A stretch of DNA of 64,000 nt from Acidimicrobiales bacterium. GTDB lineage: Bacteria; Actinomycetota; Acidimicrobiia; Acidimicrobiales; Palsa-688. A model generated the notes under the pieces. It saw nothing but the letters and a program-made list of their open reading frames with translations, made no database searches and was not told where the DNA came from. A program made the position numbers and the translations under genes. Shown in pieces: positions 19,553 to 35,018 of the stretch (its first letter is position 1; each line of letters opens with the position of its first letter). The stretch spans positions 62,001 through 126,000 of the forward strand of contig DATLUM010000054.1 in the NCBI GenBank assembly GCA_035533095.1, given 5' to 3'.

Positions 19553-19601
19553 GTGGCTGGCGGGGGAGGACTCGAACCTCCAACATCCGGATCCAAAGTC
19601 C
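19553..19601. repeat. attL core (49 bp)
   Basis: Identical, base for base, to 34942-34990. It is the anticodon-loop-to-3'-end part of tRNA-Gln, left behind as a non-functional half at this end; the next base differs (C here, G at the right end). Confidence 0.92.
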
Positions 19602-19716
19602 CGCCCGAGTCGTGAGGTTTAGAACGGTCTGAAGCGTTCTGGCAGGTCAGCGGGGGTGCCGGGAACTACATCGTTGTGGCTAGTTGGGTCCCGAGAGGGT
19701 GGCGCGGTGAAGTTCC

Positions 19717-19737
19717 GTTGACAAATCCGTTGACAAG
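19717..19737. promoter_or_regulatory. Candidate integrase arm-type sites, left arm
   Basis: Direct repeat GTTGACAAA (19717) and GTTGACAAG (19729), 12 bases apart, 116 bases inside the left core. The same pair in the same order and orientation occurs 56 bases inside the right core, as expected of the two arms of attP. A -35-like TTGACA hexamer is contained in the repeat, so promoter function is an alternative. Confidence 0.5.
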
Positions 19738-19763
19738 ACGCAAGCGGGGGGCAAGGTTGCACT

Positions 19764-19819
19764 AGGAACGTGATGGCGCATTCTTTCCAAACCCCCTGAG
19801 AGAGGTAGCCCCTCCAAAA
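19764..19819. repeat. 56-bp direct repeat with hairpin, copy 1
   Basis: Identical to 22122-22177. It ends in CCCTCC, which can pair with GGAGGG about 20 bases downstream in the diverged continuation, giving a stable stem. The stretch 19602-19901 otherwise holds no gene that I can support. Confidence 0.85.
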
Positions 19820-19901
19820 AAGCGCGGAACCCCAGGGAGGGGGTGCCTCGTGTGCACGGGCCACGCGGCACTCCCCCTCCCCCTGCCCTCAGGCCGGGGT
19901 T

Positions 19902-20186
19902 TTACTGCCCGTCGCGCATCTGAGGCAAAGCTTCAGCGACCGCAGGAGCAGACCCGAGTTTCTGGTTCATTGCGATCAGCTCCTTCCAGATCAACTGGAG
20001 CAAGTATCCATTCGCCAGGTCGGCAGCCGCAGTCGCCATCGTCGCATGGCGCGTCTCGGCATCCAATCGGCCGCCCTTCCCCGCTCGCTGAAGTTGGTCA
20101 ATAGCTTGCGCTCGGTACTCGTCGATAAGTTGGGCGGTCGTCTTTGGCGGTGCCGGCGCCGGCACCGCCTTCTTCCCGAATGGCAT
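19902..20186 (-). CDS. Small element protein, function unknown
   Basis: 94 residues. A basic start (MPFGKKAVPAPAPP), then predicted helices with TTAQLIDEYRAQAIDQLQRAGKGGRL; no known domain. A purine-rich site (CGGAGGTAAGCC) precedes the ATG. Transcribed toward the left end. Confidence 0.6.
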   Translation of the reverse strand: MPFGKKAVPAPAPPKTTAQLIDEYRAQAIDQLQRAGKGGRLDAETRHATMATAAADLANGYLLQLIWKELIAMNQKLGSAPAVAEALPQMRDGQ

Positions 20187-20232
20187 GGCTTACCTCCGTT
20201 GCGGATGCTTCCCGCCGAGTCTCGCGCGCTCA

Positions 20233-20364
20233 CTACGCTGCGCGTCTCCCGGCCCGGATCGCTCGACGCTCCCGTTGGGTGAGCCCGGCCCATATCCCGT
20301 CCAAGTCCGCTCCTTGCTCAAGGGGACCAGCTACAGGGTGACCCGAATAGGACCCAAAGGCAAT
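20233..20364 (-). pseudogene. WhiB-like C-terminal fragment, copy 2
   Basis: A 43-codon open stretch ending EQGADLDGIWAGLTQRERR-AIRAGRRAA. The G[VI]W[AG]GL-x-[EQ]RER turn and basic tail are the DNA-binding end of WhiB-family regulators. The iron-sulfur cysteine region is missing and there is no ATG, GTG or TTG in frame before the upstream stop; only an ATT preceded by GAGGAG. Either a remnant, a very short protein with a rare start, or part of a frameshifted product. Compare 21188-21319. Confidence 0.45.
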
Positions 20365-20369
20365 CTCCT

Positions 20370-20933
20370 CTAACCCGGCGCGTCCTCGTCTGATTCGGCG
20401 AGAAGTTCGGCCGAGTAGAGGAGGTACTTCCCATCCTCCGGATCGGTCGTCGCGGGAATGCCTAGCGTCTTGTTGACGCTCTGCATCTTGCCGTTCTTGC
20501 GGTGGACGCTTGATCTAACCCTTGTGGCCCCTGCGGCCGAGCAGTTGTCAAGCACCTGGCGCTTCAGGTCCGTCGCTATCCCGTTGTTTTGCTTAGGGAC
20601 GGCTACACCGATCGAGTAGATGACACCGAACCCCTGGTCGTCGCGGTACGTATAGACAACGACGCCAATGATGCTTCCATCCTCTACGGCGACAAGACAG
20701 TCAAGGGTTTCGTCCGCGCCGAGATCGTCGACCGCCTCATGCAGAACGGTCTGCGCATGCATCGCGTACGACCCCGAGCGCGACTTGGCGCAGCGAAAGG
20801 CCTTGATCTCCTCGACGTCCGCAGGACTCCACCTGCGGATCTCCCAAACGGGCCGCGCCAGGCGTTCAGATGGCCCGGGACGGGTGCGTATACACCGGGC
20901 TGGTGGCGGCGAGCAGGGCCTCGATCGCGGCAA
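20370..20933 (-). CDS. GNAT-family acetyltransferase-like protein
   Basis: 187 residues if the ATG at 20933 is used. The N-terminal 30 residues overlap another small gene and look non-native, so translation may begin later with a rare codon near LARPVWEIRRWS. The rest has the GNAT pattern: EIRRWSPADVEEIKAF, IIGVVVYTYRDDQGFGVIYSIGVAVPKQNNGIATDLKRQVLD (acetyl-CoA loop region). Acetyl acceptor unknown; such genes are frequent cargo or anti-host factors in phage elements. Confidence 0.62.
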   Translation of the reverse strand: MPRSRPCSPPPARCIRTRPGPSERLARPVWEIRRWSPADVEEIKAFRCAKSRSGSYAMHAQTVLHEAVDDLGADETLDCLVAVEDGSIIGVVVYTYRDDQGFGVIYSIGVAVPKQNNGIATDLKRQVLDNCSAAGATRVRSSVHRKNGKMQSVNKTLGIPATTDPEDGKYLLYSAELLAESDEDAPG

Positions 20934-20991
20934 GCTGAGCGGCGCTCAGCGGCGCGCCCTTGCCCAACTTTCCGTCCTTCGACCTGCCCAA
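20866..20991 (-). CDS. 41-residue element protein
   Basis: TTG start eight bases after a perfect GGAGG. Product begins MGRSKDGKLGKGAPLSAAQL and continues with an Ala-rich helix. It overlaps the 5' end of the GNAT frame and probably couples to it. No family recognised. Confidence 0.5.
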   Translation of the reverse strand: MGRSKDGKLGKGAPLSAAQLAAIEALLAATSPVYTHPSRAI

Positions 20992-21187
20992 GGCCCTCAC
21001 CTCCGCACTATCGGTTGTCTGCCTGTTGTCACTTTAAATGATGTGTTCCCAATACAGAAGGCCCGGAAGTCCATTTCTTTCATCGTTTCTTCTGTTCGTT
21101 TCTATCTCTATCATAGATGGCGTACCGGGGGGATTGACCTTAGCCCGGATGGCACCGATCGGCCTCGGGCGACTTCTCGCTCTTCTC

Positions 21188-21319
21188 TTAGGCGGCGCGC
21201 CGGTCGGCCCTGATCTGCCGCCGCTCCCGTTCGTCCAGACCGCCCCAGACACCCGCAAGCTCCGCTCCCTGTTCCGGGCTCCACGCGCGGCACTGCGAGT
21301 ACGAGACGCGGATGATCGC
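21188..21319 (-). pseudogene. WhiB-like C-terminal fragment, copy 1
   Basis: Open stretch of 43 codons with QCRAWSPEQGAELAGVWGGL followed by DERERRQIRADRRAA. The GVWGGL-DERER turn is the WhiB signature for sigma-factor/DNA contact. One Cys remains; the other three cluster ligands are absent and no normal start codon is in frame. The reading is paralogous to 20233-20364 at the same length. The rest of 20992-21336 shows no other gene. Confidence 0.5.
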
Positions 21320-21336
21320 TCAAGGCGAACCGAAAC

Positions 21337-21615
21337 CTAAGAGCTAGGAGGCGCGTCCCCCGGCTTGTACTGCGTGTACTCAGACGATCCGCAACCAGGA
21401 CAGCGGGCGTTGCTCAGAACACGCTCCTGCTGGCCCTGAAGGGCCATTGACTGCATCGAATAGCGCTCCCGCTGCTTGCCGATGGCGAAGAGCGAGGCCC
21501 GGCCCATCGCCTTCACCTGGGAGCCCCTTGGCGCCTTCTCGGTCGCCCATTCCTTTGGCAGTAGCCACCGGTTGCCGCAGTTGTTGCAGATCCTCGTGTA
21601 GTCCTTGGCTGCCAT
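21337..21615 (-). CDS. Zinc-ribbon protein of the element
   Basis: 92 residues with two cysteine pairs, CNNCG near residue 10 and CPGCG near residue 72, the layout of a rubredoxin-like zinc ribbon split by a helical insert (RGSQVKAMGRASLFAIGKQRERY). Probably binds nucleic acid or protein. No family name can be given. Confidence 0.7.
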   Translation of the reverse strand: MAAKDYTRICNNCGNRWLLPKEWATEKAPRGSQVKAMGRASLFAIGKQRERYSMQSMALQGQQERVLSNARCPGCGSSEYTQYKPGDAPPSS

Positions 21616-21731
21616 ACCGGCCCTCCCCCGTCGCCCCGCTGGCCCCGTCCGGGAGCCTACGCCGCGCGCGAGCGTCGTTTTAGGGCCGAAGGACCCTACC
21701 GGCGTAACGGCGCGAAGCCGACAATAAGGAA

Positions 21732-21881
21732 GTGGAACAACTATCGCTTAACGATGTTCGCTTCTTGCTCGACGAGATGGCGGAGTGGCGGGTGCTCATC
21801 CCCTTCGACGCGGCGGAGCTAGTCCGATATCAACGCCTCTGCGAACTTGAGCAGGAGATGATCCACGCTCAGTCAAGGTGA
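21732..21881 (+). CDS. 49-residue element protein
   Basis: GTG start after AAGGAA. Acidic helical product starting MEQLSLNDVRFLLDEMAEWR. The last four bases (GTGA) are the start of the next small gene, so the pair is co-translated. Not recognised. Confidence 0.55.
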   Translation: MEQLSLNDVRFLLDEMAEWRVLIPFDAAELVRYQRLCELEQEMIHAQSR

Positions 21882-22006
21882 CCCAGGGTGAGCCGTACAC
21901 GTCGACCGACTGTCGTATCGGGGACCACACGAGCTGCCAGGAGAGGCGGATCGCCCCGCACTGCGCCTGCCCTTGCCACCCCGAGGAACCAACGAAGTCT
22001 CGCTAG
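21878..22006 (+). CDS. 42-residue cysteine-rich element protein
   Basis: Five Cys and three His in 42 residues, ending HCACPCHPEEP, with earlier DCRIGDHTSC. The density suggests one bound zinc. GTG start overlapping the previous stop. Small Cys-rich proteins of this style are common in actinophage genomes; function unknown. Confidence 0.55.
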   Translation: MTQGEPYTSTDCRIGDHTSCQERRIAPHCACPCHPEEPTKSR

Positions 22007-22121
22007 GCCGGTCGGTCGGTCGAGCCGATTCGGTTAGCAGCGCTAACTGGCGGCGGTCCGGGCCCACCCGTAACGTCCACTCCGCGGGGACGCGCCCGGC
22101 TACCAAATCTCACCACCTGGA

Positions 22122-22177
22122 AGGAACGTGATGGCGCATTCTTTCCAAACCCCCTGAGAGAGGTAGCCCCTCCAAAA
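22122..22177. repeat. 56-bp direct repeat with hairpin, copy 2
   Basis: Same 56 bases as 19764-19819. Here CCCCTCC (22168-22174 region) pairs with GGAGGGG about 17 bases later to form a compact stem without a long T-run. Nothing else is identifiable in 22007-22275. Confidence 0.85.
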
Positions 22178-22275
22178 GCGCGAACTCCACGGAGGGGCGT
22201 GCCTTGTGCTTCGTCCACTCGGCACGCCCCTCCCTCCACTGAGATGTCTCCCGGCCGGCGTTGGCAGACGGTCGA

Positions 22276-22473
22276 CTAGTCGGGCGGTAGCCGGCCGGTC
22301 TCGCGCGCCCATGCCTCCACGTCCCGCCAGTCCCACACGAGCCCGGCTCTCAGCCGCGCGACCGGCTGGGGGAAGTCGTCATAGCGAGCGATCCAGTCGT
22401 GCACGAGAGAGGCGTGACGGGCCCCCAGGCGCTCCGCTATCTCGGATGCCCCTACAAGTTGGTCGGCAGGCAC
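22276..22473 (-). CDS. Excisionase-like helix-turn-helix protein
   Basis: 65 residues from the GTG at 22473. LVGASEIAERLGARHASLVHDWIARYDDFPQPVARLRAGLVWDW matches the MerR/AlpA-type winged helix used by excisionases and small phage regulators: ASEIAERLG turn, then a W-rich wing and the DVEAWARETG recognition end. An in-frame ATG at 22647 would add 58 unlikely residues over the dyad region. It may be the Xis that works with the integrase. Confidence 0.65.
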   Translation of the reverse strand: MPADQLVGASEIAERLGARHASLVHDWIARYDDFPQPVARLRAGLVWDWRDVEAWARETGRLPPD

Positions 22474-22530
22474 TTCCTTAGCCCCCACGAGTCGGGGAAC
22501 GTAGCCGAGCGGTTCCCGAAGATTGGTTAT

Positions 22531-22584
22531 TGCGGGCGACCACCCGCAGGGCTTATGGTACGTCTTGCGAGGGACCACTCGCAA
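22531..22584. promoter_or_regulatory. Two dyads between divergent element genes
   Basis: TGCGGG-N6-CCCGCA at 22531-22548 and TTGCGA-N8-TCGCAA at 22565-22584, with ACCAC in both loops and centres about 35 bases apart. They lie between the minus-strand HTH gene and the plus-strand five-gene set, a fitting place for operators. Confidence 0.5.
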
Positions 22585-22639
22585 CGGGTCCGGGGGATTC
22601 TGGGGGCCCTTCCCGTACAACCAGAGGGAAAGGGGAAAC

Positions 22640-22978
22640 ATGACCATTCAGGAAGCACGGGTTCCGCTTAGGACCCCGGCGAACGAAACGATCACAGTCG
22701 GAGAGTTGCTCGACACCATCGCCCGGGCGACAGGACTCCACGCCCAAATCCTCGACCCGGCACTCGCAGACGTAAGGCTCTACGCCCGGACGCAGACCGG
22801 GGACTACGTGGACCACGCGTACCTCGATGTCGCCGGGGTCGACGACTCGGGCTATCTGGTGTTCGGCCTTCAGGGCGAGTGCGGCCTGGCTGTGGTCAGT
22901 GTCCCGTCTGGCTCAGAGGGCATCGTTGCGATCCTGGAGGACGCGAGGAACGCCTACGGGACGGACGAGGCGTCGTGA
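22640..22978 (+). CDS. Element protein, paralog of the next gene
   Basis: 112 residues; ATG preceded by AGGGGAAA. It contains ITVGELLDTIARATGLHAQI and SGSEGIVAILEDARNAY. The next protein has the same two blocks, so these arose by duplication. First of five plus-strand genes with ATGA/GTGA overlaps. No known family. Confidence 0.72.
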   Translation: MTIQEARVPLRTPANETITVGELLDTIARATGLHAQILDPALADVRLYARTQTGDYVDHAYLDVAGVDDSGYLVFGLQGECGLAVVSVPSGSEGIVAILEDARNAYGTDEAS

Positions 22979-23328
22979 GCGCCGCGACAGCCGATATCGA
23001 CGTCGCGGCAAAGGAGTCGATCCGCGTCGGGGAGTTGCTCGACACGATCGCTGAGGCGACCGGACTGCGGGCCGATGACCCAGGGCTGCTCAAGGTCCGC
23101 TTGCATGTAGTCGACCAGTTCGGCCGCTTCGCCGACCTTGAGTTCGACAGGATGCTGCTGTCCGAATGGGATCAGGACCGCGACCCGGACATCGTGTTCC
23201 TCGCGACCCGCGAAAGCGATTACGGGCCGATGGTCGCCATCCCGGCCGGCACCGAGGGCATCGCCGACATCCTGTGGGATGCGCACGAGGCCGCGTGGAG
23301 CGACGGCCGCGAGTGGGGCAAGCGATGA
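22975..23328 (+). CDS. Element protein, paralog of the previous gene
   Basis: 117 residues from a GTG overlapping the previous stop. IRVGELLDTIAEATGLRADD and AGTEGIADILWDAHEAAW mirror the blocks in the upstream paralog; the middle (DQFGRFADLEFDRM) corresponds to QTGDYVDHAYLD. Acidic and soluble. Function unknown. Confidence 0.72.
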   Translation: MSAATADIDVAAKESIRVGELLDTIAEATGLRADDPGLLKVRLHVVDQFGRFADLEFDRMLLSEWDQDRDPDIVFLATRESDYGPMVAIPAGTEGIADILWDAHEAAWSDGREWGKR

Positions 23329-23594
23329 GCGCCGCCGACCGCATCACGGCCCTAGAGGCTGAGGTAGCCGAACTGAGGGCGTTCGTGCCAATGCTGGCCC
23401 GGATGGCCTTCTACGAGGCGCTGAACGGGGTGTCGATCCCGGACGCTGTCCGTGCGGTCAACGACTGCTGCGAGCAGGGTGTCATCCCGGAGAGCCGCCG
23501 GTCCGCGGACGAACCGCTCCCCGCTGCCGCTCAGGTTCTCCATGACGCCTACGACAGACGCGAACGGACCCAGCGCGCGAGGAGGGCGTCATGA
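23325..23594 (+). CDS. Element protein with short coiled coil
   Basis: 89 residues. N-terminal heptads (ADRITALEAEVAELRAFVPM) followed by a helical region and a basic tail. ATGA overlap with both neighbours. Function unknown; probably acts in a complex. Confidence 0.68.
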   Translation: MSAADRITALEAEVAELRAFVPMLARMAFYEALNGVSIPDAVRAVNDCCEQGVIPESRRSADEPLPAAAQVLHDAYDRRERTQRARRAS

Positions 23595-24106
23595 GCACCA
23601 CCAGCGCCGCCTTCGACGTGGACCTCGCGGACATCAAGAGGCAGGCCCTACCGGCCGTCGAGGAGCTACTCCGGTTCTCGGCGTGTCTGCCTGGGATCCT
23701 CCGCCTGCACGACTACCTGGACGCCGAGGTGATGGCCCTCTCCGGCGACCCCGAAGCAGGTGAGGCCTACGAGAGTGTCCGGGACCGGTCCGGGGTCACC
23801 GCCGTTCGGCACATGCTGATGCACATTGCCGGCTCAATCGAGGAGATGTTCGACGGGACCGGCTTCTGCACTATCGACAACGCGGGTGATCGTGCCGCTT
23901 TGATCGCCGGGCTCAACCTGCCGGCCCCGGTGCGGGCGGAACTGACCGAGGATTCGAGGGCCTTCCCGTTGCGCGCAGCAGACGACAGCGACGAGGATCC
24001 CGCCCTTGGGCCGGTTCGCAAGGCGTTCGACCTCCTGCGTGAGGCAGAGGCACAGCTCCTCCTCGCCTCCGTCCGTCTGGAGGTGCCACCCGATGACGCC
24101 TCGTAA
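23591..24106 (+). CDS. Acidic element protein
   Basis: 171 residues, helical, strongly acidic in the second half (EDSRAFPLRAADDSDEDPALG). No recognised domain. Overlaps both adjacent genes. Confidence 0.7.
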   Translation: MSTTSAAFDVDLADIKRQALPAVEELLRFSACLPGILRLHDYLDAEVMALSGDPEAGEAYESVRDRSGVTAVRHMLMHIAGSIEEMFDGTGFCTIDNAGDRAALIAGLNLPAPVRAELTEDSRAFPLRAADDSDEDPALGPVRKAFDLLREAEAQLLLASVRLEVPPDDAS

Positions 24107-24308
24107 CCCGCAACCGTCGCGGCCGCTCACGGTCACTGTGCTCGACCCGAAAGCCATCGCCCGCATCGAGCGGCTGACGAAGCTCCTGCTCCCCCGGGGG
24201 TGGCCCGCGCTAACCCAACCGAACCTAACACCAAACGAGGCGCCCCGCTCTTACCGGCGGGGCGTTTCCGCGTTCAGAGCGGCTGAACGATTAGCAAAGG
24301 GTCGTTGA
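24093..24308 (+). CDS. Small basic element protein at the end of the plus-strand set
   Basis: 71 residues. The first 45 (PLTVTVLDPKAIARIERLTKLLLP) look protein-like; the remainder is read through a terminator hairpin and into the 3' end of the convergent gene, so the C-terminus may be incidental. ATG inside the preceding gene. Confidence 0.5.
   Translation: MTPRNPQPSRPLTVTVLDPKAIARIERLTKLLLPRGWPALTQPNLTPNEAPRSYRRGVSAFRAAERLAKGR
24242..24269. terminator. Terminator between convergent element operons
   Basis: Stem CGCCCCGC (24242-24249) / GCGGGGCG (24258-24265) with an 8-base loop, followed by TTTCC. Placed exactly where the plus-strand set and the long minus-strand operon meet. Confidence 0.75.
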
Positions 24309-25065: not shown

Positions 25066-25068
25066 TTG

Positions 25069-25335
25069 TCAGAACTCCTTTTCAGTGGCGAAGCTGGCCG
25101 CTTCGCCTGCTAGACGGTCGATGACGTTGGCGACCGGTTCCATTTTCAGGTCGCTCAGCGCGAACGCGTACGAGGCGGCGACAGTGGCCAGGGCCGTGAT
25201 CGTCTCGCGGGCGTCGTCGCCTCTCAGGATCTCGTCGGCAAGTGCCATGACACCGTTCATGTCGTCCGCGACAACGAGGGCGACCATCGCGGCGGCCGCC
25301 GCGTAGCCGGCGCCCTCGTGGTGGTTCGTGCTCAC
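25069..25335 (-). CDS. Small acidic element protein
   Basis: 88 residues, Ala-rich helices (GYAAAAAMVALVVADDMNGVMALADEIL). GTG start overlapping the stop of the terminase nuclease gene. Position after the terminase suggests a packaging or head accessory, but nothing in the sequence shows it. Confidence 0.6.
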   Translation of the reverse strand: MSTNHHEGAGYAAAAAMVALVVADDMNGVMALADEILRGDDARETITALATVAASYAFALSDLKMEPVANVIDRLAGEAASFATEKEF

Positions 25336-25991
25336 AATGCAACTCCTTCGCTTTCTGTTCGGCGGCCTATGTCGGCGCGCATCATGTCCACGAACGCGGC
25401 GGCCGGGCCGGCGCCGCGCTCCGCTCCCCACACGCCCAACGCCAACGCCGTAACAAGGTCGTCGTGCGCGCCGCGCCCCTCGTACTTCGGGCGGCCAGTG
25501 GCCGACATCTCGTAACTGAACGCGCGCATCTCCTTGCCCAACTCTTTCGCCAACGTCAGGTCTGGCGCGGCGTGAAGCCGGCGGGTCGACAGGGCGACTT
25601 CCAAGCATCCGACAAGGTCGGTTTTCGGCACGGCGAAGTCCTGACCGTTCCTCGTCACCGTGGCGCCGGGAGTGATCGTGACACCGTTGACCGGGAACGG
25701 GCAGCCCTGGCGGAGCAGGTCGAGGACAGGGCGGCCCACGCCGGTAGCGTCGACGAACAACACTGGCCTTTCGTCGCAGTCCAAGGTCTCGGCGAACGCC
25801 GTGATCATCTCCGCCTGCTGCGGGTATGGGATCCCGGGCCGCAACCGGTCCAAGGCGATCAGATCGTGCTCTAGGGGCCGACGTTTGCGGCCCTTGGCGT
25901 TCTCGACCGGTTCCCCACGCCACGACGCCACAGCGGCGAGAGCGGTACGGTCCCGGGCCTGGGCGAGGTCGATTCCGATCGACAAGCTCAT
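25332..25991 (-). CDS. Terminase large subunit, nuclease domain (separate gene)
   Basis: 219 residues with the RNase H-like nuclease fold of TerL. The three acidic metal sites are visible: D8 in SIGIDLAQ, D81 in LFVDATGVGRPVLDLL and D177/D178 in GAHDDLVTALALGVW. There is no ATPase motor in this chain. ATG overlaps the stop of the ATPase gene (ATGA), so both chains are made together and should act as one packaging enzyme. In most phages these two domains are one protein. Confidence 0.85.
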   Translation of the reverse strand: MSLSIGIDLAQARDRTALAAVASWRGEPVENAKGRKRRPLEHDLIALDRLRPGIPYPQQAEMITAFAETLDCDERPVLFVDATGVGRPVLDLLRQGCPFPVNGVTITPGATVTRNGQDFAVPKTDLVGCLEVALSTRRLHAAPDLTLAKELGKEMRAFSYEMSATGRPKYEGRGAHDDLVTALALGVWGAERGAGPAAAFVDMMRADIGRRTESEGVAL

Positions 25992-26917
25992 GGTCTTGTC
26001 GCCCCGCAACCGAACGCACAGAAGTGCGGTGGTTCTGGGCGCCAACGGTGCTGACAGAGCTTCTGCTCACGTTCACGCATCCGCTCACCACGGCCCTGAG
26101 CCGCCTGCAGGCTCCGCACATGGCGCCGGAAGGCACGCATGCCGGGATCGACTGGCTGGGCCGGCCGGGGGGCAGCAGGGGCCGCTGGGTGCGCTCTGGC
26201 CGCGAACAGGGCGGCCACGTCGGCGTCTCGGAACGCTGCGCCGGCCGAATCAATGAACGAGCACATGTACTCCGCGGAGAACGCGGCCTCACCTAGCCGT
26301 TCCCGTTCCTCGTCCAGGAACTCGGGGGCGATGCGCGGGCATTCCGTCGCCGGGATGGTGACGTGCTCCCAACGGTCGGAAAGGGTCGCCTCGTACCACC
26401 AGCCGCGCCTGCCCGCGGGGGTCGACATGGCGACAAGGCGGCCACCCGAAACGGCGAGCATCGGGGAGACGGACTGATACAGGGCGTCAGGGACGTAGGC
26501 GGCCTCGTCCACGAGCAGAAGGTCGACGGTGTAACCGCGGATGCCGCCCTCGGATGCTGGGAGCGAAATGACCCGGCTGCCGTTCTCCAAGCGCAACATG
26601 TGAACGTTCTCCTGGAGCGCGTCGACCGGCTTGCCGAGCAACCGGTAGAAAGCCGTGATCTTCAGGAAAAGCTCGTTCGACTGGCGCTCCGAGGGACTGA
26701 CGATCAGCACCGTGGCATTCGGCTTGAACAACGCCGCGTGCAGTGCAGCAATAGACGTGACAGTCGACTTTCCTACCTGGCGCGAACAGTTGAGATGCAT
26801 CCGGGGCGCGGTCGAGCGCAGCACCCGGGCTTGCCAAGGGTCGGGGGAGAACTTGAGTTGTTTCGCGAGCCGTACCGGGTCGGCTGCGCCGGCGAGCCAC
26901 GCCGTCAACTTGCTCAT
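25988..26917 (-). CDS. Terminase large subunit, ATPase domain with zinc-finger-like tail
   Basis: 309 residues. Walker A-like CSRQVGKST (44-52), Walker B VDLLLVDEAAY (131-141), coupling motif LVAMSTPAG (161-169) and the EYMCSFIDSAGAAF segment (216-229) that normally leads into the nuclease domain. Instead there is a Pro/Ala linker and a C-terminal C288-x-H290...C300-x3-C304 cluster resembling small phage zinc ribbons. The nuclease is supplied by the next gene. It powers DNA translocation into a procapsid. Confidence 0.88.
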   Translation of the reverse strand: MSKLTAWLAGAADPVRLAKQLKFSPDPWQARVLRSTAPRMHLNCSRQVGKSTVTSIAALHAALFKPNATVLIVSPSERQSNELFLKITAFYRLLGKPVDALQENVHMLRLENGSRVISLPASEGGIRGYTVDLLLVDEAAYVPDALYQSVSPMLAVSGGRLVAMSTPAGRRGWWYEATLSDRWEHVTIPATECPRIAPEFLDEERERLGEAAFSAEYMCSFIDSAGAAFRDADVAALFAARAHPAAPAAPRPAQPVDPGMRAFRRHVRSLQAAQGRGERMREREQKLCQHRWRPEPPHFCAFGCGATRP

Positions 26918-27441
26918 GATGAGGGGTCTCCTTCGGGTAGTGCGTCGATGGCGTCGAGCGCGTCAGCGATCGCGATCCGCGCGTCCGGGTAGCGTTCCGT
27001 GGCCCCAAGGATCGCGGCCACCGCCTGCGCGAACTCCGGCGTGGTAAGGACATTCACCGTTGTGAACGTCGGGCGCTCGTCCAGTTCACCGCGTAGTCGG
27101 GCGATCAGCTCCAAGCTCTGCCTGATCTCGCGCGCGACGTTGCTGCCACCGGTCAGCGCGCCCTTCTCCTCAGCGAGTGTCAGCAGACTTTCGAGACGGC
27201 CAACGAGCGATTCGACGCGGTCCACGACCGAATCGAACGCCTGACGCGCAGAGTCGGTCCCGAACCGTTCGACAGCGACCTTCGCCAACGCCGGCGAAAG
27301 ATGGTTCGACTTGTGACGGCGGAGGGCGTCCTCGCTAAGCCGGTGCCTGCGTGCGATCGCGGCAGGGCTCTCACCGCCGGCCAGTTCGCTGTCGACGCGG
27401 TCACGGGCGGGCAACGTACACACGGTGCAGGTGCGGGCCAC
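26914..27441 (-). CDS. Small terminase-like DNA-binding protein
   Basis: 175 residues. N-terminal CTVCTLPARDRVDSELAGGE, then a helix-turn-helix (SPAAIARRHRLSEDALRRHKSNH), a central coiled coil and a C-terminal helical region. Position immediately before the large terminase and the domain order HTH-oligomerisation-tail match TerS, which recognises the packaging site. The assignment is by context and architecture. Confidence 0.72.
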   Translation of the reverse strand: MARTCTVCTLPARDRVDSELAGGESPAAIARRHRLSEDALRRHKSNHLSPALAKVAVERFGTDSARQAFDSVVDRVESLVGRLESLLTLAEEKGALTGGSNVAREIRQSLELIARLRGELDERPTFTTVNVLTTPEFAQAVAAILGATERYPDARIAIADALDAIDALPEGDPSS

Positions 27442-27861
27442 CTAGAACGGCTCCTCTTCGACCGGCGTCGGGGCGCGGCGTTCGACCCGCTGCACTTCGA
27501 CAGCGGCGAACCTCAGGTCCGGTCCGATCCCGTCGGCGACGATCTTCTTGGTGCTTCGTTCGACGCCGTCCCGGTCTTTCCAGTGTTCGACCTCGCCCTT
27601 GCCGACGACCACGACCCGGTCACCCTTCTGCAACGACCGGGCGACGTGCTCCGCGAGGGTGCCGAACGCGACGACCTCGTAGAAGACCGTCTCGGCCTCG
27701 GGCTCGCCCTTCGGGACGTGCGGTCGGTGGGCAAGACCGACGCGTGCAAACGCGGTACCGGTCTTGCCGAACCGCAGTTCAGGGTGGCTACTGAGGTTGC
27801 CGATCCTCGCCACCGGTGTCGCGGTATCCGGGGCCGTCACGAGACGATCCGCCTCTTCCAC
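27442..27861 (-). CDS. ssb: Single-stranded DNA-binding protein
   Basis: 139 residues, one OB fold: ARIGNLSSHPELRFGKTGTAFARVGLA, FYEVVAFGTLAEHVARSLQKGDRVVVVGKGEVEHW. The acidic C-terminal tip ends EEEPF, close to the DDDIPF tip of bacterial SSB that recruits partners. Probably coats replication intermediates of the element. It overlaps the upstream gene by 25 bases. Confidence 0.9.
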   Translation of the reverse strand: MEEADRLVTAPDTATPVARIGNLSSHPELRFGKTGTAFARVGLAHRPHVPKGEPEAETVFYEVVAFGTLAEHVARSLQKGDRVVVVGKGEVEHWKDRDGVERSTKKIVADGIGPDLRFAAVEVQRVERRAPTPVEEEPF

Positions 27862-29217: not shown

Positions 29218-29369
29218 TAGATGGTTCCTTTCTGTGACACCGCGGCGATCGCAGTCACGTCGCGGCGCTTCGACGCATCCGACTGCAATCGACGACGACG
29301 GCGCGCCGCACGCGACAACGGACGTTGACCCGTGGACGCCGGCTTTCGATGCGAATGTGACCGGGCCAA
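29217..29369 (-). CDS. 50-residue very basic element protein
   Basis: TTG start after AAGGAG. Product begins MARSHSHRKPASTGQRPLSR and contains five Arg in a row; probably DNA-binding. TAATG overlap links it to the next gene. First recognisable gene of the late-type operon. Confidence 0.55.
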   Translation of the reverse strand: MARSHSHRKPASTGQRPLSRAARRRRRLQSDASKRRDVTAIAAVSQKGTI

Positions 29370-30144
29370 GATGAACTCTCCTTGTGCTTCGTGGATTGCG
29401 AAAATGGGTCCAGCCGGGGACGGGGTGCCGAGCTGAGACACACCCGCCCGCGGCCGGACCAGAACGCGCTGGGGGATCGTCGGCCGGAGATAGTGGCCTC
29501 CTCGCCCATCGGCGCGGCACACGGCTGATGAAGACCGCGGCGTTGTCCGTTGACGCACTGAAAGAAAGAGGGGTTGCTCGGCCGGCGTCGGGTGGAGTTA
29601 AGACCCGAGCACCGGCCCGCCCCCGAAAGGGCGAACGACGGCTGACAAGACCGTCGCGAGCGGCCCGGGTAACGCGGCCGGCAGTGGGAGGGCGACCGCG
29701 CACCCAGGGAAGTTGTGATGTTGCGATTGGCCCAGCGACCAAGCGACCACCAGGGCAGAAGTCGAAGGGACCTGAAGTGCCCTTTGTCCCCCCTTGCCCG
29801 AAACGCAGGTTTGGGGGTGATAACGCCGGGATAGCGCTGCCGATATCGCGGCGCGTGATCGGGTCGGCTGATCGGCGTGACCAGGCCCGCTTCAGCCGAC
29901 CATCCGTGCGTTGACATCGCATTGACACGGTGCCCCTGACCTGCTCTTTTGCGGCCGTCACTTGATGTGCAGTCAAGAGGTCGGGACTGCCGGGCACCAT
30001 CGGCGCGGTGGGGTAGCGCGCGCGGGGCTGGGCGACCCTCCCTCCGAGATGGCACGAGCGCCGCGCTGGAGCGGGACCCCCTGTTCTCATCGGCTCTGTC
30101 CTGGGGTGTCGATGTCGTTGGAGTCGACACCGTGCTCTGATCAT
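29370..30144. other. Gene-poor region between replication and packaging modules
   Basis: No frame here has convincing protein character, although a minus-strand frame opens with an ATG at 30148 overlapping the ATPase stop (MNDQSTVSTPTTSTPQDRAD). Visible elements: the pair GTTGACA (29910) and ATTGACA (29921), 11 bases apart, like the att-arm repeats; and AAGGGACCTGAAGTGCCCTT near 29764, a dyad. The region probably holds the promoter of the packaging operon and perhaps the replication origin. Confidence 0.5.
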
Positions 30145-31440
30145 TCATGGCTGGCTCCTGTTGGCGCGGGTGCCGGGAGACTCCACCGACTGCTCCGACT
30201 GCGCCGACTGGGGTTCGCTTTGTCCAGTGGGTGCAGTCAGCGCTGTTAGAGCACTCTCCCCATGGCTGCTCCGACTGGGCTGCTCCGACTGTGAGAGGTC
30301 GACCAGGATGCGGTCCACGTCGTCGGGGGTGAGGGTTGGTGCGGACCAGTAGGTGCGCCTGGGGAAGCCGTGTGCGGTGGCGCCAGCACCGATCTTCTGT
30401 CGGGCACGTTTGAGGGCGTCAATGCCGTGGCCATCAGCCTTGCCGGCGTCCTTGATCTCCTTCGACGATGCGACCTTGTGCATGGTGAGGAAGTCGGAGA
30501 GCCATGCGGCTGCCTCCTGGGTCGCGCTGCGGCTGTCGTTGGACTCTGCTGCGGTGCGGAGCACGTCGTCGATGCTGCGGGAGGTCTCGCCGCGCCAGAC
30601 GAGCCGTGCCGTCCAAACCTGGCCCTCGTCTGTCTCGGCCACGACGGCGCCTTCGATGGTGAAGGTGAGGCTCGGCAGGTCGGTTCGCCCGAGGTTGTTC
30701 TTCGGCTGGCCGAGAATCCTGACCTGTTCGCTCTCGGGGTCGACGGTTACGAACAGGACCGCGCGAGCGACAGCAGCGAACGCGCGTGACGCCATGAGCA
30801 TGGTGAGCGGGTCCGTCGTGGTGGACTTGTTCAGGTGGATCAGCCCGAGCAGCGCGATCTGGCATCGGTCGGCGAGCGCGACCAACGGCTCGAGTGCCTG
30901 GCGGACGTCGGCGTCTTTGTGTGTGTCGAGGTTGGCGTCGAGGCGGCTCATCAGTGGGTCGAGCAGCACCATCGCAGCGTCAGCTTCGGTGATCAGCTTG
31001 CGGAGCTCGCCGAGGTCACCGGGAAGGTTGAGCGAACCGTGAAAGCCGGCCGAGGTGGTCACGTCGACCCGGTAAATCCGGTCCAGGTCGGCACCTGCGG
31101 CCATCAACCTGGGGACGATGGTGTGCTCCCACGAGTCCTCGGTCGCGGCCACGACCACCGATCTCGGGTCGCCGAAATAGGCGCCGGTCAGCCTCCCACG
31201 GGTTATGTCGGCCGCGATCTGATAGCAGACAGTGGACTTGCCGATACCCTCGCGGCCGCCCATCAGCGCGAGCGTCCCGAGCGCGACCCTGCCGTCCCAC
31301 AGCCAGCGGACCGGGCGCACCTTGATCGAAGACGCCGGCGTCAGCGTCAGGGCGCGGTGACCGTCCTCACCGAACGCGGCTGGCTCGTTTGGGATGGACC
31401 GGGAACCTGCCGGCAACTCAAGCCGTTCGATCGCGCTCAC
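30145..31440 (-). CDS. AAA-family replicative ATPase (RepA-like, AAA_25)
   Basis: 431 residues. Walker A GGREGIGKST (61-70), Walker B AAMVLLDPLMSR and a sensor region LGLIHLNKSTTTDP are those of RecA-fold hexameric helicases such as RSF1010 RepA. The C-terminal third has a helical DNA-binding-like part and a Ser/Gln-rich tail. Preceded by a separate DnaB-N-type protein with a 4-base overlap, so the pair may substitute for a DnaB helicase at the element's origin. Confidence 0.82.
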   Translation of the reverse strand: MSAIERLELPAGSRSIPNEPAAFGEDGHRALTLTPASSIKVRPVRWLWDGRVALGTLALMGGREGIGKSTVCYQIAADITRGRLTGAYFGDPRSVVVAATEDSWEHTIVPRLMAAGADLDRIYRVDVTTSAGFHGSLNLPGDLGELRKLITEADAAMVLLDPLMSRLDANLDTHKDADVRQALEPLVALADRCQIALLGLIHLNKSTTTDPLTMLMASRAFAAVARAVLFVTVDPESEQVRILGQPKNNLGRTDLPSLTFTIEGAVVAETDEGQVWTARLVWRGETSRSIDDVLRTAAESNDSRSATQEAAAWLSDFLTMHKVASSKEIKDAGKADGHGIDALKRARQKIGAGATAHGFPRRTYWSAPTLTPDDVDRILVDLSQSEQPSRSSHGESALTALTAPTGQSEPQSAQSEQSVESPGTRANRSQP

Positions 31441-31886
31441 GACGCCACTCCCACCAGCCGGCGGAGATCCGGGGCGAGATCGGCGACGACTTGCTCAAGG
31501 GGTTCGCCTTCGCCCAGACGGTTGAACAGATCGCGGGCCGCCGTCATCGCGCGTCTTGCGTCCGCGGCCCGTCTAACCCGGCCGGCGAGGGTACCGTTCG
31601 TGTCCCATTGCAGCGGCCGGTCGTCGACAATGCGACGAACCTGGTCGACCGCAACGCCAGCTAGCTCGGCGGCGCGAGCAATCCGGGCTTCACGCGTGTC
31701 GAGATCCGTGCCGGGCAGATCGAGCCGTCCGCACGCCTCGAAAAGTCGGCGGAGGTCTGGACGGTAAAAGTCGTCGGCGGCGACGCGCGACGCGGCCATC
31801 TGGTAGCCGCGCTCACTGTCGACGCAGCAGCCGCTCACGCCCTCCTCGGCCGTCGCGTCCTCGGGGATGTGGAGATCGGCGCCCAT
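31437..31886 (-). CDS. Stand-alone DnaB N-terminal domain-like protein
   Basis: 149 residues. HIPEDATAEEGVSGCCVDSE followed by AADDFYRPDLRRLFEACGRL matches the DnaB helicase N-terminal domain (P-x5-E-x2-V-LG; DFY-x3-H/L-x2-IF), which normally contacts primase. The helicase domain is absent here and provided by the next gene. Overlaps both neighbours (ATGA). Confidence 0.75.
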   Translation of the reverse strand: MGADLHIPEDATAEEGVSGCCVDSERGYQMAASRVAADDFYRPDLRRLFEACGRLDLPGTDLDTREARIARAAELAGVAVDQVRRIVDDRPLQWDTNGTLAGRVRRAADARRAMTAARDLFNRLGEGEPLEQVVADLAPDLRRLVGVAS

Positions 31887-32065
31887 CAGGCGACGGCCTC
31901 GCCGTGCTCATGTGCGACCGACGCCCACAGTGCGCAACGCCCGGCTACGCGTTCAAGCGAGACGATCAGGGCCGGATCCGCCGGGCAGCGCCCGTCCGCG
32001 CAGGCTGCGAGCACTCGTTGAAGGGCCTGCGCCCGAAGAAGCGCTTCGCGGGCGGAGTCGGTCAT
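31886..32065 (-). CDS. 59-residue element protein
   Basis: MTDSAREALLRAQALQRVLA opening, helical with two Cys. ATGA overlaps at both ends; part of the early operon. Not recognised. Confidence 0.6.
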   Translation of the reverse strand: MTDSAREALLRAQALQRVLAACADGRCPADPALIVSLERVAGRCALWASVAHEHGEAVA

Positions 32066-32247
32066 GCAGACTCCTGCGAGTCCATTCCGAGGGCCCGGTC
32101 CACCAGAGCCCGCGGCCACACGAGACGCCGGCCGATACGGATGGGCTCGAAGGGGCAGGTTCCGTTGCGGACGGCCTCGTAGATGCTCCAGGCCGAGACA
32201 CCCAGTAGTTCGCTCAACTGCTCGGCGGTGTAGGTCGCTGAGGGCAT
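32062..32247 (-). CDS. Helix-turn-helix excisionase/AlpA-like protein
   Basis: 61 residues from the ATG at 32247: YTAEQLSELLGVSAWSIYEA, then NGTCPFEPIRIGRRLVWPRA, the HTH_17 fold of excisionases and small regulators. It is a second candidate Xis beside the 22276-22473 gene; its place early in the lytic-type operon fits. Confidence 0.78.
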   Translation of the reverse strand: MPSATYTAEQLSELLGVSAWSIYEAVRNGTCPFEPIRIGRRLVWPRALVDRALGMDSQESA

Positions 32248-32426
32248 CAGCGGGCCCCGAACTTCTCGAAGCCGCCTCCGCAACCCCGGTGGATAAGCCG
32301 GCGGTGGCGCCGCATCGCCGGGAGAGTCACCCGGTCGACGCCACGTACCCGATCACACGTGCCCACGGCCCCGCACGTGGCGCACTGAACCAGCCAGGTC
32401 CCCTCTGTCCCGGCCTCAGGTCTCAT
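32247..32426 (-). CDS. Small zinc-finger-like element protein
   Basis: 59 residues from the ATG at 32426, with CATC and a later HRRLIHRGCGG that could close a zinc site. TGATG overlap with the HTH gene. Function unknown. Confidence 0.55.
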   Translation of the reverse strand: MRPEAGTEGTWLVQCATCGAVGTCDRVRGVDRVTLPAMRRHRRLIHRGCGGGFEKFGAR

Positions 32427-32470
32427 GTTGGGCGCCCCACTCAGCAGGGAGCCTCCGGTGGGCGTGGCCC

Positions 32471-32719
32471 TCAATCGCCGCCTCCATGATCAACACCGGC
32501 CAAGTCCGCCAGTTCGTAGATCAACTCCGCATATCGAATGGCCGCGTCGCCGCGCGGCACCCGTTTGCTGTGCTCCCACCGCCACAACGTGGACGGTGCG
32601 ACCCCAACGGCCGCTGCGGCCTCCGGAATGGTTAGCCCTGCTGCGGCCCGAATGCGGGGCCCGTGGCTGCGAGCGAGGCTCCGGGCTGCTGCCACTACTA
32701 TCGCATCGGAAGCGTTCAT
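32471..32719 (-). CDS. Cro-like helix-turn-helix regulator
   Basis: 82 residues: AAGLTIPEAAAAVGVAPSTLWRWEHSKRVPRG is an XRE-type HTH. It is the first gene of the early operon and divergent from the repressor, the classical position of Cro. No Shine-Dalgarno is seen before the ATG, so the mRNA may be nearly leaderless. Confidence 0.78.
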   Translation of the reverse strand: MNASDAIVVAAARSLARSHGPRIRAAAGLTIPEAAAAVGVAPSTLWRWEHSKRVPRGDAAIRYAELIYELADLAGVDHGGGD

Positions 32720-32959
32720 TAAGCCAACACGCTACCCGGGTCGTGCCAAGTGCAAAGGCACGAGAAAGGCTTTCTCAGGGGCGAAGAGCGTTTTATTCGG
32801 AGCTGTCTCAACTCTTGACTTAAGCCATAACCGCAAGGTGGGGATTGAGGTCTTCCGACCGGGGACGGCTCTCTTCTGCTCCCGGTCGGGGCCCCAGGCG
32901 AGAGACGTCTGCCGATTAGCTGTTGTAATAGTGAACACGCTGTGGCAAGATGTTGGCAC
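32720..32959. promoter_or_regulatory. Divergent control region of the element (repressor/Cro switch)
   Basis: 240 bases without a gene. AACACGCT occurs at 32726-32733, beside the Cro-like start, and again at 32934-32941, 19 bases before the repressor ATG; GTGCC-N9-GGCAC lies at about 32743. These are operator candidates. TTGTAATAGT at about 32922-32931 may hold the repressor -10. Confidence 0.5.
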
Positions 32960-33727
32960 ATGGCTGATCACGTCACGTTCGAGCAAGCGGTGGGAGCGAA
33001 CGTCTCCCGGCTGCGAATCGCCGCAGGGAAGACTCAGGGCCAGGTGGCCGACCACCTAGCGATGCGCGGGCTTAGCTGGCGGCGCAGCACCGTCGCTCAG
33101 GTCGAGACGGCGCGTCGGCAGATAGGGCTCGCCGAGGCTCTCGCTTTGGCGGATGTACTCGACGTCCCGCTTGTGGAACTCCTGCGAACGCAAACGCCGG
33201 TCCGGGTCGATCTCGGGCAGTGGCACCCGAAGTTCCTCGTGGCGGCGCTAGAGGGAACCACCGGCGACCTTCTCGCAATCGAGTCCTACACATCCCCCAG
33301 CCGCGAGAAGATGTACTCGCAGATTCACGTCGTCCTCGGTGCGCTGAACTCCGCGGATCAGCGACACGCCGACCGCTGGCCAGGACGGTACCGCGAGCGA
33401 GACCTCGGGGCTGCGACCCCCTTTGAGTATGCGACCGCTCGGCGCATCGAATCCCAGGTTCGGCTCGGGGTCCGTGCCCCGGACGTGGTGGCCGCCGCCG
33501 ACACGCTGTGGAGGCACTCACTCACCGAAGAGCGCGACCGACGGGTAAAGCGCCGCGCGAACGCGAAGGCATCCCCGCGGACCCTTCAAGCCGTTCGCGG
33601 GCTTGTCATGCGTGAACTCGACAAAGAACTCGAAGCCGCCATCGAGGAAGCAGCCAACCGTGCGGCCGTCGAGCCGGCACCGAAACCCAAGCGAGGGGCG
33701 CAACGCCCCGGAAAGGGCAACCGATGA
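32960..33727 (+). CDS. XRE-family repressor of the element
   Basis: 255 residues. N-terminal HTH (VSRLRIAAGKTQGQVADHLA ... RSTVAQVETARRQIG) and a helical C-terminal region with a basic tail rich in Lys and Pro. No LexA-like Ser-Lys autoprotease motif is seen, so induction may need an antirepressor, as in satellites. Divergent from the Cro-like gene; its stop overlaps the integrase start, so repressor and integrase are one lysogeny operon. Confidence 0.82.
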   Translation: MADHVTFEQAVGANVSRLRIAAGKTQGQVADHLAMRGLSWRRSTVAQVETARRQIGLAEALALADVLDVPLVELLRTQTPVRVDLGQWHPKFLVAALEGTTGDLLAIESYTSPSREKMYSQIHVVLGALNSADQRHADRWPGRYRERDLGAATPFEYATARRIESQVRLGVRAPDVVAAADTLWRHSLTEERDRRVKRRANAKASPRTLQAVRGLVMRELDKELEAAIEEAANRAAVEPAPKPKRGAQRPGKGNR

Positions 33728-35007
33728 AGGGAAGCACTCGCAAACGTGGCAGCACGTGGACGGCGTATTGGTTCACGACCGACCCGGCGACGGGGGAGCG
33801 CAAGCAGCACACCCGGGGTGGCTTCCGGACGCAGAAGCTCGCCCAGGGCCACCTGAACGGGATCCTGGAGAAGGTCGAGACCGGGGCGTGGAAGCCCGAT
33901 CAGAAGCTCACCGTCGGGCAACTGCTGACCGAGCATTGGCTGCCGGCCATCAGGACCGAGGGACACCGACCCGCGACGGTCGAGCAGTACGAGTCCGTGG
34001 TCGAGCACTGGATCGTGCCGCACATCGGGGCCAAGGTCGTGTCCACCCTCACGCCGTCCGACGCGCAGGGCTACGTCGAGCGGATCCGGACCACCAAGAC
34101 CGCTTCGGGACGCAAGGGGCTGTCGGCCCGGAGTGCCCAACTGTCGGTCGGGATCCTCAAGGCCGCTACCGCGTGGGCCCTGACGGCCGGGCTTCTCGGA
34201 CGGGACCCTCTGTCCGGCGTGAAGCGCCCGAAGGTGACCCGCAAGCCCGTCTCTGCCTGGTCGACCGACGAGGCCCGCAGATTCCTCGCGGCGACCAAGG
34301 ACAGCCGCCACGCGTGGGCGTGGGCTCTTCTCCTGAGCCGTGGTCTGCGCCGGGGTGAGCTTTGCGGGCTGCGTTGGGACGCTGTCGACGTGGAGGGCGG
34401 CTCCATCCGGATCACCCGGACCAGGATCCTCATCGACGGCAAGGTCGCCGACTCGATCCCCAAGACGCTCTCGGGCCTCCGGTCGGTCCCGATCGACTCC
34501 TACCTCGTGGCACTCCTGAAAGCCCACAAGGCCCGCCAAGCGGCCGAGCAGCTCGCTGCCGGCGAGGCGTACGAGGATGAGGGCTGGCTGTTCGCCGACG
34601 AACTCGGCAAGCCCTACTACCCCTCCAGCCTGTCCGTATGGTTCGAGGAGGAGCGGGCCAAGGCGAAGCTCCCGAAGATCCCGCTCCACGGCACAAGGCA
34701 CACGGCCGCGAGCCTCATGCTCGCCGACCGAGTACCCGTCCGGGTCGTCTCCGAGATGCTGGGCCACTCGGACCCGAACATCACCTTGAGCGTCTACGCG
34801 CACGTGATCCCGGGGATGGCGGAGACGGCCGGGGCCAGCCTGTCCGCGTCGCTCCTCGGGGTCGATGTTGACAAAGCGTTGACAAGCCCCGAATCCGGGG
34901 ACCCTGCCGAGGGGGTCATAGTGCCTCTGACCAGGGCCGTTGTGGCTGGCGGGGGAGGACTCGAACCTCCAACATCCGGATCCAAAGTCCGGTGTTCTGC
35001 CAATTGA
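33724..35007 (+). CDS. int: Tyrosine integrase whose C-terminus is read through attR into tRNA-Gln
   Basis: 427 residues in the integrated state. N-terminal arm-binding domain (about 1-60), SAM-like core-binding domain (65-165) and catalytic domain with R210 (GLRRGEL), K248, H322 and R325 (HGTRHT), H348 (LGHSDPN) and the nucleophile Y358 (SVYAHV). The last residues GGGGLEPPTSGSKV are encoded by the att core, antisense to the tRNA; the final RCSAN and stop are host DNA. In the excised circle the frame would continue with the left-end sequence and end PPES. ATG overlaps the repressor stop. Confidence 0.95.
   Translation: MKGSTRKRGSTWTAYWFTTDPATGERKQHTRGGFRTQKLAQGHLNGILEKVETGAWKPDQKLTVGQLLTEHWLPAIRTEGHRPATVEQYESVVEHWIVPHIGAKVVSTLTPSDAQGYVERIRTTKTASGRKGLSARSAQLSVGILKAATAWALTAGLLGRDPLSGVKRPKVTRKPVSAWSTDEARRFLAATKDSRHAWAWALLLSRGLRRGELCGLRWDAVDVEGGSIRITRTRILIDGKVADSIPKTLSGLRSVPIDSYLVALLKAHKARQAAEQLAAGEAYEDEGWLFADELGKPYYPSSLSVWFEEERAKAKLPKIPLHGTRHTAASLMLADRVPVRVVSEMLGHSDPNITLSVYAHVIPGMAETAGASLSASLLGVDVDKALTSPESGDPAEGVIVPLTRAVVAGGGGLEPPTSGSKVRCSAN
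34867..34886. promoter_or_regulatory. Candidate integrase arm-type sites, right arm
   Basis: GTTGACAAA (34867) and GTTGACAAG (34878), 11 bases apart, inside the 3' end of int and 56 bases from the core. Matches the left-arm pair at 19717-19737. Confidence 0.5.
34942..34990. repeat. attR core (49 bp)
   Basis: Identical to attL. Covers the tRNA-Gln anticodon loop, T arm, acceptor 3' strand, encoded CCA and one further base, and simultaneously codes for the end of the integrase on the opposite strand. Confidence 0.92.
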
Positions 35008-35018
35008 ACTACCCGCCA
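34943..35018 (-). tRNA. tRNA-Gln (anticodon UUG)
   Basis: 76 bases with genomically encoded CCA. Acceptor TGGCGGG pairs with CCCGCCA; the anticodon loop is CTTTGGA with anticodon TTG; the T loop GGTTCGAGTCC is standard. Integration kept the gene whole because the att core restores its 3' half. Confidence 0.95.

Follow-up and report, generated by a model that had tools for sequence, protein, structure and literature searches.

A compact tRNA-Gln element with a complete two-part terminase and no recognised capsid gene, probably a phage satellite

Phage satellites are held either to borrow the packaging motor of a helper phage, as do the phage-inducible chromosomal islands (PICIs), which often add only a small terminase subunit (TerS), or to make their own capsids, as do the capsid-forming PICIs (cf-PICIs). 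A 15.4-kb element at a tRNA-Gln gene of an Acidimicrobiales bacterium carries a complete motor but no recognised shell, a combination that lies between the two. The element lies in a window of 64,000 nucleotides (the whole stretch analyzed; assembly GCA_035533095.1, contig DATLUM010000054.1, positions 62,001 to 126,000), which belongs to contig 54 of a 3.4-Mb draft genome (G+C near 67%). A first-pass annotation, made by a model from the letters alone, had described a probable satellite that packages its own DNA in a helper's heads. We likewise consider the element likely to be a phage satellite with a PICI-like layout. It would bring a complete terminase to fill helper procapsids with its own DNA, and would add a tail part of its own. 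Related capsid-less elements in other bacteria point to a little-noticed satellite type.

Packaging genes in an element without recognised head genes

The element encodes a probable TerS and a large terminase subunit (TerL) split into two genes that overlap by 4 bp, TerA for the ATPase half and TerB for the nuclease half (Table 1); in phage Riverbug and the Meiothermus phages the two halves are fused in one protein. In the capsid-less relatives described below, TerA keeps its Walker A, Walker B and coupling motifs, and TerB keeps its three acidic motifs. TerS is named from gene order, its homologue in Riverbug and the Meiothermus phages being the gene immediately upstream of TerL, although the Riverbug annotation gives the name TerS to a different gene. 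Pairwise ratios of nonsynonymous to synonymous substitution rates (dN/dS, NG86) against the relative G387 are 0.16 for TerS, 0.17 for TerA and 0.31 for TerB, values to be read as orders of magnitude only, dS being high. All three genes are under purifying selection. The first-pass annotation had listed a TerS with a two-part TerL and had remarked that, unlike many satellites, the element has a large terminase of its own; both statements are borne out by the family matches, by the position of the TerS homologue and by a split TerL that is complete, with intact motifs.

By homology, the element appears to hold a single virion-type gene, the one previously described as tail-like. Its 263-aa product has no family match of its own in Pfam- and PHROG-type searches, and no relative was found in phage and viral collections; the one relative came from genome G234, and it in turn resembles phage minor tail proteins over their C-terminal part (phrog_7565, 7e-18; Mycobacterium phage Angel gp22). 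The tail-like description therefore holds by way of the 40% identical G234 intermediate, but not by a direct family match. The G234 gene also lies within an element without recognised head genes, beside a small protein weakly similar to the 88-aa protein that accompanies the tail-like gene here. Portal, capsid, protease, tape-measure and lysis families gave no match in any tested reading frame of the element, in agreement with the first reading, and the largest unclassified protein, at 263 aa, is too short for a portal. The proposed search of the unclassified proteins for head and portal folds succeeded in part: no head or portal homologue was found and no protein of portal length is among them, but the structure models, made for the tail-like protein and TerB, are too poor for fold comparison.

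The remaining layout is that of a divergent switch. A plus-strand operon of repressor and integrase faces away from a minus-strand operon that runs from an HTH_17 gene through a 59-aa protein, DnaB-N, AAA_25, a 927-bp gap, three charged proteins, SSB, TerS, TerA, TerB and the 88-aa protein to the tail-like gene. This divergence had been noted from the sequence, as had the DnaB-N, ATPase and SSB genes, and both stand on the family matches in Table 1, whereas the early gene that had been called Cro-like is, by PF12728, an HTH_17/excisionase-type protein and not a proven Cro. Overlaps of 1–4 bp, reported for nearly all genes, occur at 9 of the 12 junctions of the minus-strand operon; the other three comprise one abutting pair, one 3-bp gap and the 927-bp gap. 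An iteron array or cos-like site was looked for in that last gap (29218-30144), and none could be demonstrated.

The element measures 15,389 bp from start to start of two exact 49-bp repeats; the attachment (att) sites are intact, as first described. The repeat has only two copies in the window even at up to three mismatches, and it was found 0 times in 100 shuffles. The 3' part of tRNA-Gln(ttg) forms its right copy, and its left copy is the duplicated end, from which it follows that integration restored the tRNA. The integrase gene (33724-35007) crosses the att core, and the integrated and excised forms would differ in the last few residues of the protein (RCSAN versus PPES, in that order).

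Relatives with and without head genes

The combination of TerS and TerL with intact motifs, an own replication gene and no recognised portal or capsid is shared by the window element, G387, G337, L113 (from IMG/VR), L163, the plasmids pSR11, pSR14 and pDJL3, and a Streptomyces virginiae plasmid. G387, from the same bacterial family, has 11,869 bp between 45-bp repeats at tRNA-Phe, with TerA 72% and TerB 65% identical, and carries an XkdF-type protease gene (PF14550, 3.5e-11). In L113, 8,942 bp between 46-bp repeats at tRNA-Met hold repressor/integrase, ATPase and TerS-TerA-TerB in matching order, followed by proteins of 71-182 aa only. G337, set between host genes, has a serine integrase and TerS-TerA-TerB, then a 1,227-aa tape measure. 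L163, a closed circle of 15.0 kb with a terminal repeat of 95 bp, combines ParA and a primase with TerS-TerA-TerB, a protease and a tape-measure-like gene; no portal or capsid was recognised in it. G870, its left end cut, runs from TerS-TerA-TerB through a candidate defence pair to host gyrase genes. The earlier suggestion to look in related genomes for a similar capsid-less order is thus answered by G387, L113 and G337 and by the closed circles pSR11, pSR14 and L163. The hosts of relatives of the replication genes are mostly actinobacterial, which together with the high G+C content points to an actinobacterium as the probable host.

Several further loci deserve mention. The candidate defence pair of G870 (L065:7869-9832), DUF5131 + PDC-M41A, follows immediately after TerB, and the element has no capsid genes. 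Just past the attachment repeat of L113 (L113:9927-13036) lie another integrase and a gene resembling DNA methyltransferases, a sign that one tRNA-Met may hold elements in tandem. The element of Aeromicrobium sp. CnD17-E (L033:6919-18986) has a related AAA_25 gene, a tape measure of 1,056 aa and an operon of integrase and repressor, with no terminase large subunit or capsid recognised within the 21 kb read. L103 and L136 are 15-kb IMG/VR contigs (G+C about 52%) with TerS-TerA-TerB and no recognised portal; L136 also has a tail-collar-type gene.

Only the terminase has relatives accompanied by a full head module; these are in Thermus phage Riverbug, Meiothermus MMP17 and IMG/VR contigs such as L099, in which TerL is fused or split and the portal lies close behind. 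The terminase block is therefore phage-derived. A profile search of IMG/VR for the terminase returned 364 relatives. Among the best 80 of these, TerL is fused in 16, in most of which head genes follow, and many split-TerL contigs likewise have a long, portal-sized gene close behind. We considered the split TerL as a satellite hallmark and rejected it, because phages and contigs with portals have it too; it is instead a trait of the phage lineage from which the satellites drew. Satellites and phages are intermixed in a short TerA tree.

Such an ancestry would also suit a decayed prophage, that is, a once complete temperate phage now stranded at tRNA-Gln after losing its head, tail and lysis genes, and the orphan genes and long stretches without clear genes in the element (29218-30144 and about 21700-22270) are in keeping with this. 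We nevertheless regard decay as unlikely. The assigned genes are all unbroken, the operon is overlapping, and the dN/dS values of the terminase genes argue against it, which upholds the earlier argument from the lack of broken genes. The same capsid-less block moreover occurs at two other tRNA genes (tRNA-Phe and tRNA-Met), beside a serine integrase and on closed plasmids, and independent decay to one gene set is improbable; because the capsid-less form recurs, the window element is not one broken copy.

A plasmid search for related TerA returned Salinibacter ruber pSR11, pSR14 and pSR31, two S. virginiae plasmids and Rhodococcus qingshengii pDJL3. Except for pSR31 (31.6 kb), these are closed circles of about 11-16 kb (one S. 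virginiae plasmid, 16.3 kb) with a replication gene and terminase; a tape-measure-like gene is present in pSR11, pSR14 and pDJL3. The annotations of these plasmids include no portal or capsid, and the long unnamed reading frames tested gave none either. The closest gene set is that of pDJL3 (L169, NZ_CP025962.1; 15.9 kb), with repressor-integrase, HTH genes, DnaB-N, tail genes, a positional TerS candidate, a fused TerL and an ATPase. Rhodococcus phage Mbo4 has a similar tape measure (52% identity over 97%), and a protein encoded beside the pDJL3 tape measure matches the Mbo4 tail chaperone; the pDJL3 terminase has no match in the first 20 kb of Mbo4. This pattern of matches is in keeping with a satellite that brings its own motor and a tail ruler resembling the helper's, and pSR11 and pSR14 may be plasmid satellites. 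pDJL3 itself looks like a free satellite. The three Salinibacter plasmids (L166, L167, L170) carry TerA, TerB and ParA, and pSR31 has two adjacent TerB-like genes.

That several relatives are plasmids with ParA or primase could instead mean that the terminase serves an integrative or plasmid-like element in another way, such as concatemer resolution or interference with an infecting phage; the candidate defence pair behind TerB in G870 would suit such a role, and interference with helpers is common among satellites. We find this quite improbable: TerS, ATPase and nuclease are retained together with all their motifs, and the relatives often add tape-measure or tail genes, which are sensible only in a virion. 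A capsid-forming element whose capsid and portal have diverged beyond recognition is more improbable again, for although several genes have no family match and the structure models are too poor for fold comparison, no unclassified protein exceeds 263 aa, the protein of that length has minor-tail homology through G234, and in the 8.9-kb relative L113 nothing longer than 182 aa follows TerB.

How a satellite with its own motor might travel

If the element is a satellite, infection by a helper would relieve the divergent repressor switch, and the element would excise from tRNA-Gln and replicate with its own DnaB-N, AAA_25 and SSB. Its TerS, TerA and TerB, together a complete terminase, would dock on the helper portal and load satellite DNA into helper procapsids. 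The minor-tail-like protein (in relatives a tape measure, tail chaperone or protease-like gene) could reshape the borrowed particle, whose tail would then be chimeric or whose head would be changed, and, more speculatively, the charged or coiled-coil-looking proteins near the terminase of many relatives could alter head size. We infer mobilization and packaging in helper heads from the gene content, att sites, motifs, selection, capsid and portal absence, and recurrence described above. As far as they were run, the checks proposed with the original satellite suggestion support it, in that no head or portal homologue was found and capsid-less relatives recur.

Several observations weigh against this interpretation. 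No helper, which the first-pass annotation had proposed to look for, was found: the element's own genome has no Phage_portal or PhageMin_Tail match, and the sole HK97-type capsid there sits in another small element. In G234, prophage and satellite have no tail gene in common. The tail-like assignment passes through a single intermediate sequence, and the structure models are unusable (predicted local distance difference test, pLDDT, of 40 for the tail-like protein and 42 for TerB). A split TerL, being present in portal-bearing contigs, is not satellite-specific, and it is unusual for a terminase to lack its cognate portal, since TerL then has to fit a foreign one. Excision, induction and packaging are predicted here from the genes.

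Our confidence is evenly divided on a broader proposal, namely that these elements make up a widespread, so far unnamed satellite class with its own complete motor, in which TerL is often split, and in many cases a tail-length or tail-tip protein of its own, borrowing only the rest of the particle. Its members would be found in Actinomycetota, Rhodothermota and uncultured hosts, integrated at tRNA genes or as free plasmids, and would form three-part chimeras of helper head and portal, satellite motor and satellite tail part. In the literature searched, no satellite with a complete terminase but without a capsid is described; the main satellite survey (PMC10085698) is outside that scope, so a prior description is possible. 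Such elements raise the question of how a satellite TerL recognises a foreign portal, and they suggest that small plasmids of unknown transfer mode (pSR11, pSR14, pDJL3) move in phage particles. The naturally separate ATPase and nuclease halves of TerL in this group should be useful for the study of packaging motors.

Remaining features and comparison with known systems

The features of the element are collected in Table 1. Its left arm is probably cargo and consists of four genes in a convergent operon, a GNAT acetyltransferase and small proteins; phage relatives were searched for two of the operon's genes (22975-23328 and 23591-24106) and none were found. A repeat of about 90 bp occurs at 19764-19852 and 22122-22208 (92% identical overall, 97% over the first 61 bp) with a strong hairpin alongside. 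The 61-bp part (19764, 22122) has two copies in the element and none elsewhere in the genome. We considered it as a packaging site and set it aside, since the neighboring hairpins make a terminator or a duplicated end sequence equally likely.

The same genome holds a second small element, at tRNA-Val on contig 9 (G000:C9:44448-52650; L077, L078), which encodes an integrase, regulators, DnaB and, close to the contig end, an HK97-type capsid. The element is cut off by that contig end, and the genome has no Phage_portal match. It recalls the capsid-bearing candidate PICIs of mycobacteria (PMC10654092).

Table 1. Features of the element, with positions in the window
Feature	Position	Strand	Evidence or remark
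attL	19553..19601	none	49-bp direct repeat, tRNA-Gln 3' end; exact match to 34942-34990
Small protein, 94 aa, no assigned function	19902..20186	-	open reading frame with coding score
GNAT acetyltransferase, probable cargo	20370..20762	-	PF00583 9e-9, on longer reading 20370-20933
Small CxxC protein, 92 aa	21337..21615	-	no significant family
HTH protein, like phage DNA-binding/excisionase families	22276..22647	-	phrog_597 3e-5, phrog_2620 1e-4
Probable cargo operon gene 1, 112 aa	22640..22978	+	paralogue of gene 2
Probable cargo operon gene 2, 117 aa	22975..23328	+	without phage homologue
Probable cargo operon gene 3, 89 aa	23325..23594	+	open reading frame
Probable cargo operon gene 4, 171 aa	23591..24106	+	without phage homologue
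Minor-tail-like protein, 263 aa	24274..25065	-	40% identical to G234 protein, which matches phrog_7565 minor tail 7e-18
88-aa protein paired with tail-like gene	25069..25335	-	weak relative beside G234 tail gene, E 2e-4
TerB, TerL nuclease half	25332..25991	-	phrog_27743 4e-32; Riverbug TerL C-terminal half 2e-8; GxD, VDATG, HDDL conserved
TerA, TerL ATPase half	25988..26917	-	PF03237 1.5e-13, phrog_7579 5e-61; RQxGKST, DEAA, STP conserved
TerS (probable)	26914..27441	-	homologue just upstream of TerL in Riverbug, MMP7, MMP17; also in related elements
SSB	27442..27840	-	PF00436 2e-20
Charged protein, 179 aa	27837..28376	-	G387 relative upstream of TerS, 30% identity, 2e-8
Charged protein, 143 aa	28376..28807	-	possible counterpart of G387 gene beside XkdF-type protease; weak, 32% over 94 aa, E 0.004
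Charged protein, 136 aa	28807..29217	-	no family match
927-bp gap, no convincing gene, possible replication origin	29218..30144	none	position alone
AAA_25 replication ATPase	30145..31440	-	PF13481 4e-27, phrog_10729 2e-52
DnaB N-terminal-domain protein	31437..31886	-	PF00772 7e-5, just above cut-off; G387 relative
Early protein, 59 aa	31886..32065	-	relative in G387, 57% identical
HTH_17 protein, probable excisionase/early regulator	32062..32247	-	PF12728 8e-7
XRE-type repressor	32960..33727	+	PF13560 4e-7
Tyrosine integrase, last codons read through attR	33724..35007	+	PF00589 1e-22
attR	34942..34990	none	49-bp direct repeat inside tRNA-Gln
tRNA-Gln(ttg)	34943..35018	-	restored by integrated element

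PICIs are recognized by an integrase, replication module and master regulator in conserved order, a size of about 12-15 kb, the lack of phage structural or lytic genes, att sites that prophages never use, orthology to genes of other PICIs, and induction and packaging by a helper phage with which they interfere (PMC6092414). The element has this order (its repressor-integrase operon is divergent from HTH_17, DnaB-N and AAA_25), and its 15,389 bp and its succession of integrase, divergent switch, replication and terminase are of PICI type, as the first-pass annotation had it; no head, portal or lysis gene was matched, yet there is one minor-tail-like gene. With PICIs and the Staphylococcus aureus pathogenicity islands (SaPIs) it shares a length of about 15 kb, a chromosomal site flanked by att repeats, a repressor and integrase that point away from the excision and replication genes, TerS, and the absence of head or lysis genes (PMC6092414). 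PICI DNA, however, is packaged with the helper's TerL (PMC12597102), whereas the present element itself encodes a complete split TerL, as well as a minor-tail-like protein. It resembles the cf-PICIs in packaging that would be independent of the helper's packaging complex (PMC12597102), but these make their own capsids, and no gene tested here matched a capsid or portal. Of a complete temperate prophage, with its portal, capsid, tail and lysis modules, only the terminase and one minor-tail-like gene are present.

The mycobacterial candidate PICIs and phiRv1-like elements, and Mulch and Flayer of Streptomyces, are likewise small phage-derived actinobacterial elements, several of them at tRNA genes, and Mulch and Flayer have both terminase subunits; they differ in being defined by or carrying a major capsid gene (PMC10654092, PMC10690885), and Mulch and Flayer have no replication genes. 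Among the PICI-like elements (PLEs) of Vibrio cholerae, PLE11 builds chimeric tails with its own tape measure and chaperone, two functions also found in pDJL3; the part of the account that we draw on does not mention a complete terminase for PLE, and the likeness is one of description, not sequence (PMC12987554). The closest phage terminases are those of Riverbug, MMP7 and MMP17, with TerA about 48-52% identical and the TerS homologue directly upstream, but these are full phages in which a fused TerL is followed by portal, protease and capsid. pDJL3 and pSR11/pSR14 are circles of 11-16 kb with terminase, their own replication gene, a tape-measure-like gene and no recognised capsid; they are annotated as plasmids, pDJL3 has a fused TerL with tail genes before the terminase, and the Salinibacter plasmids have ParA and no listed integrase. 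Set against the known PICIs and cf-PICIs, a full terminase without a capsid would be new.

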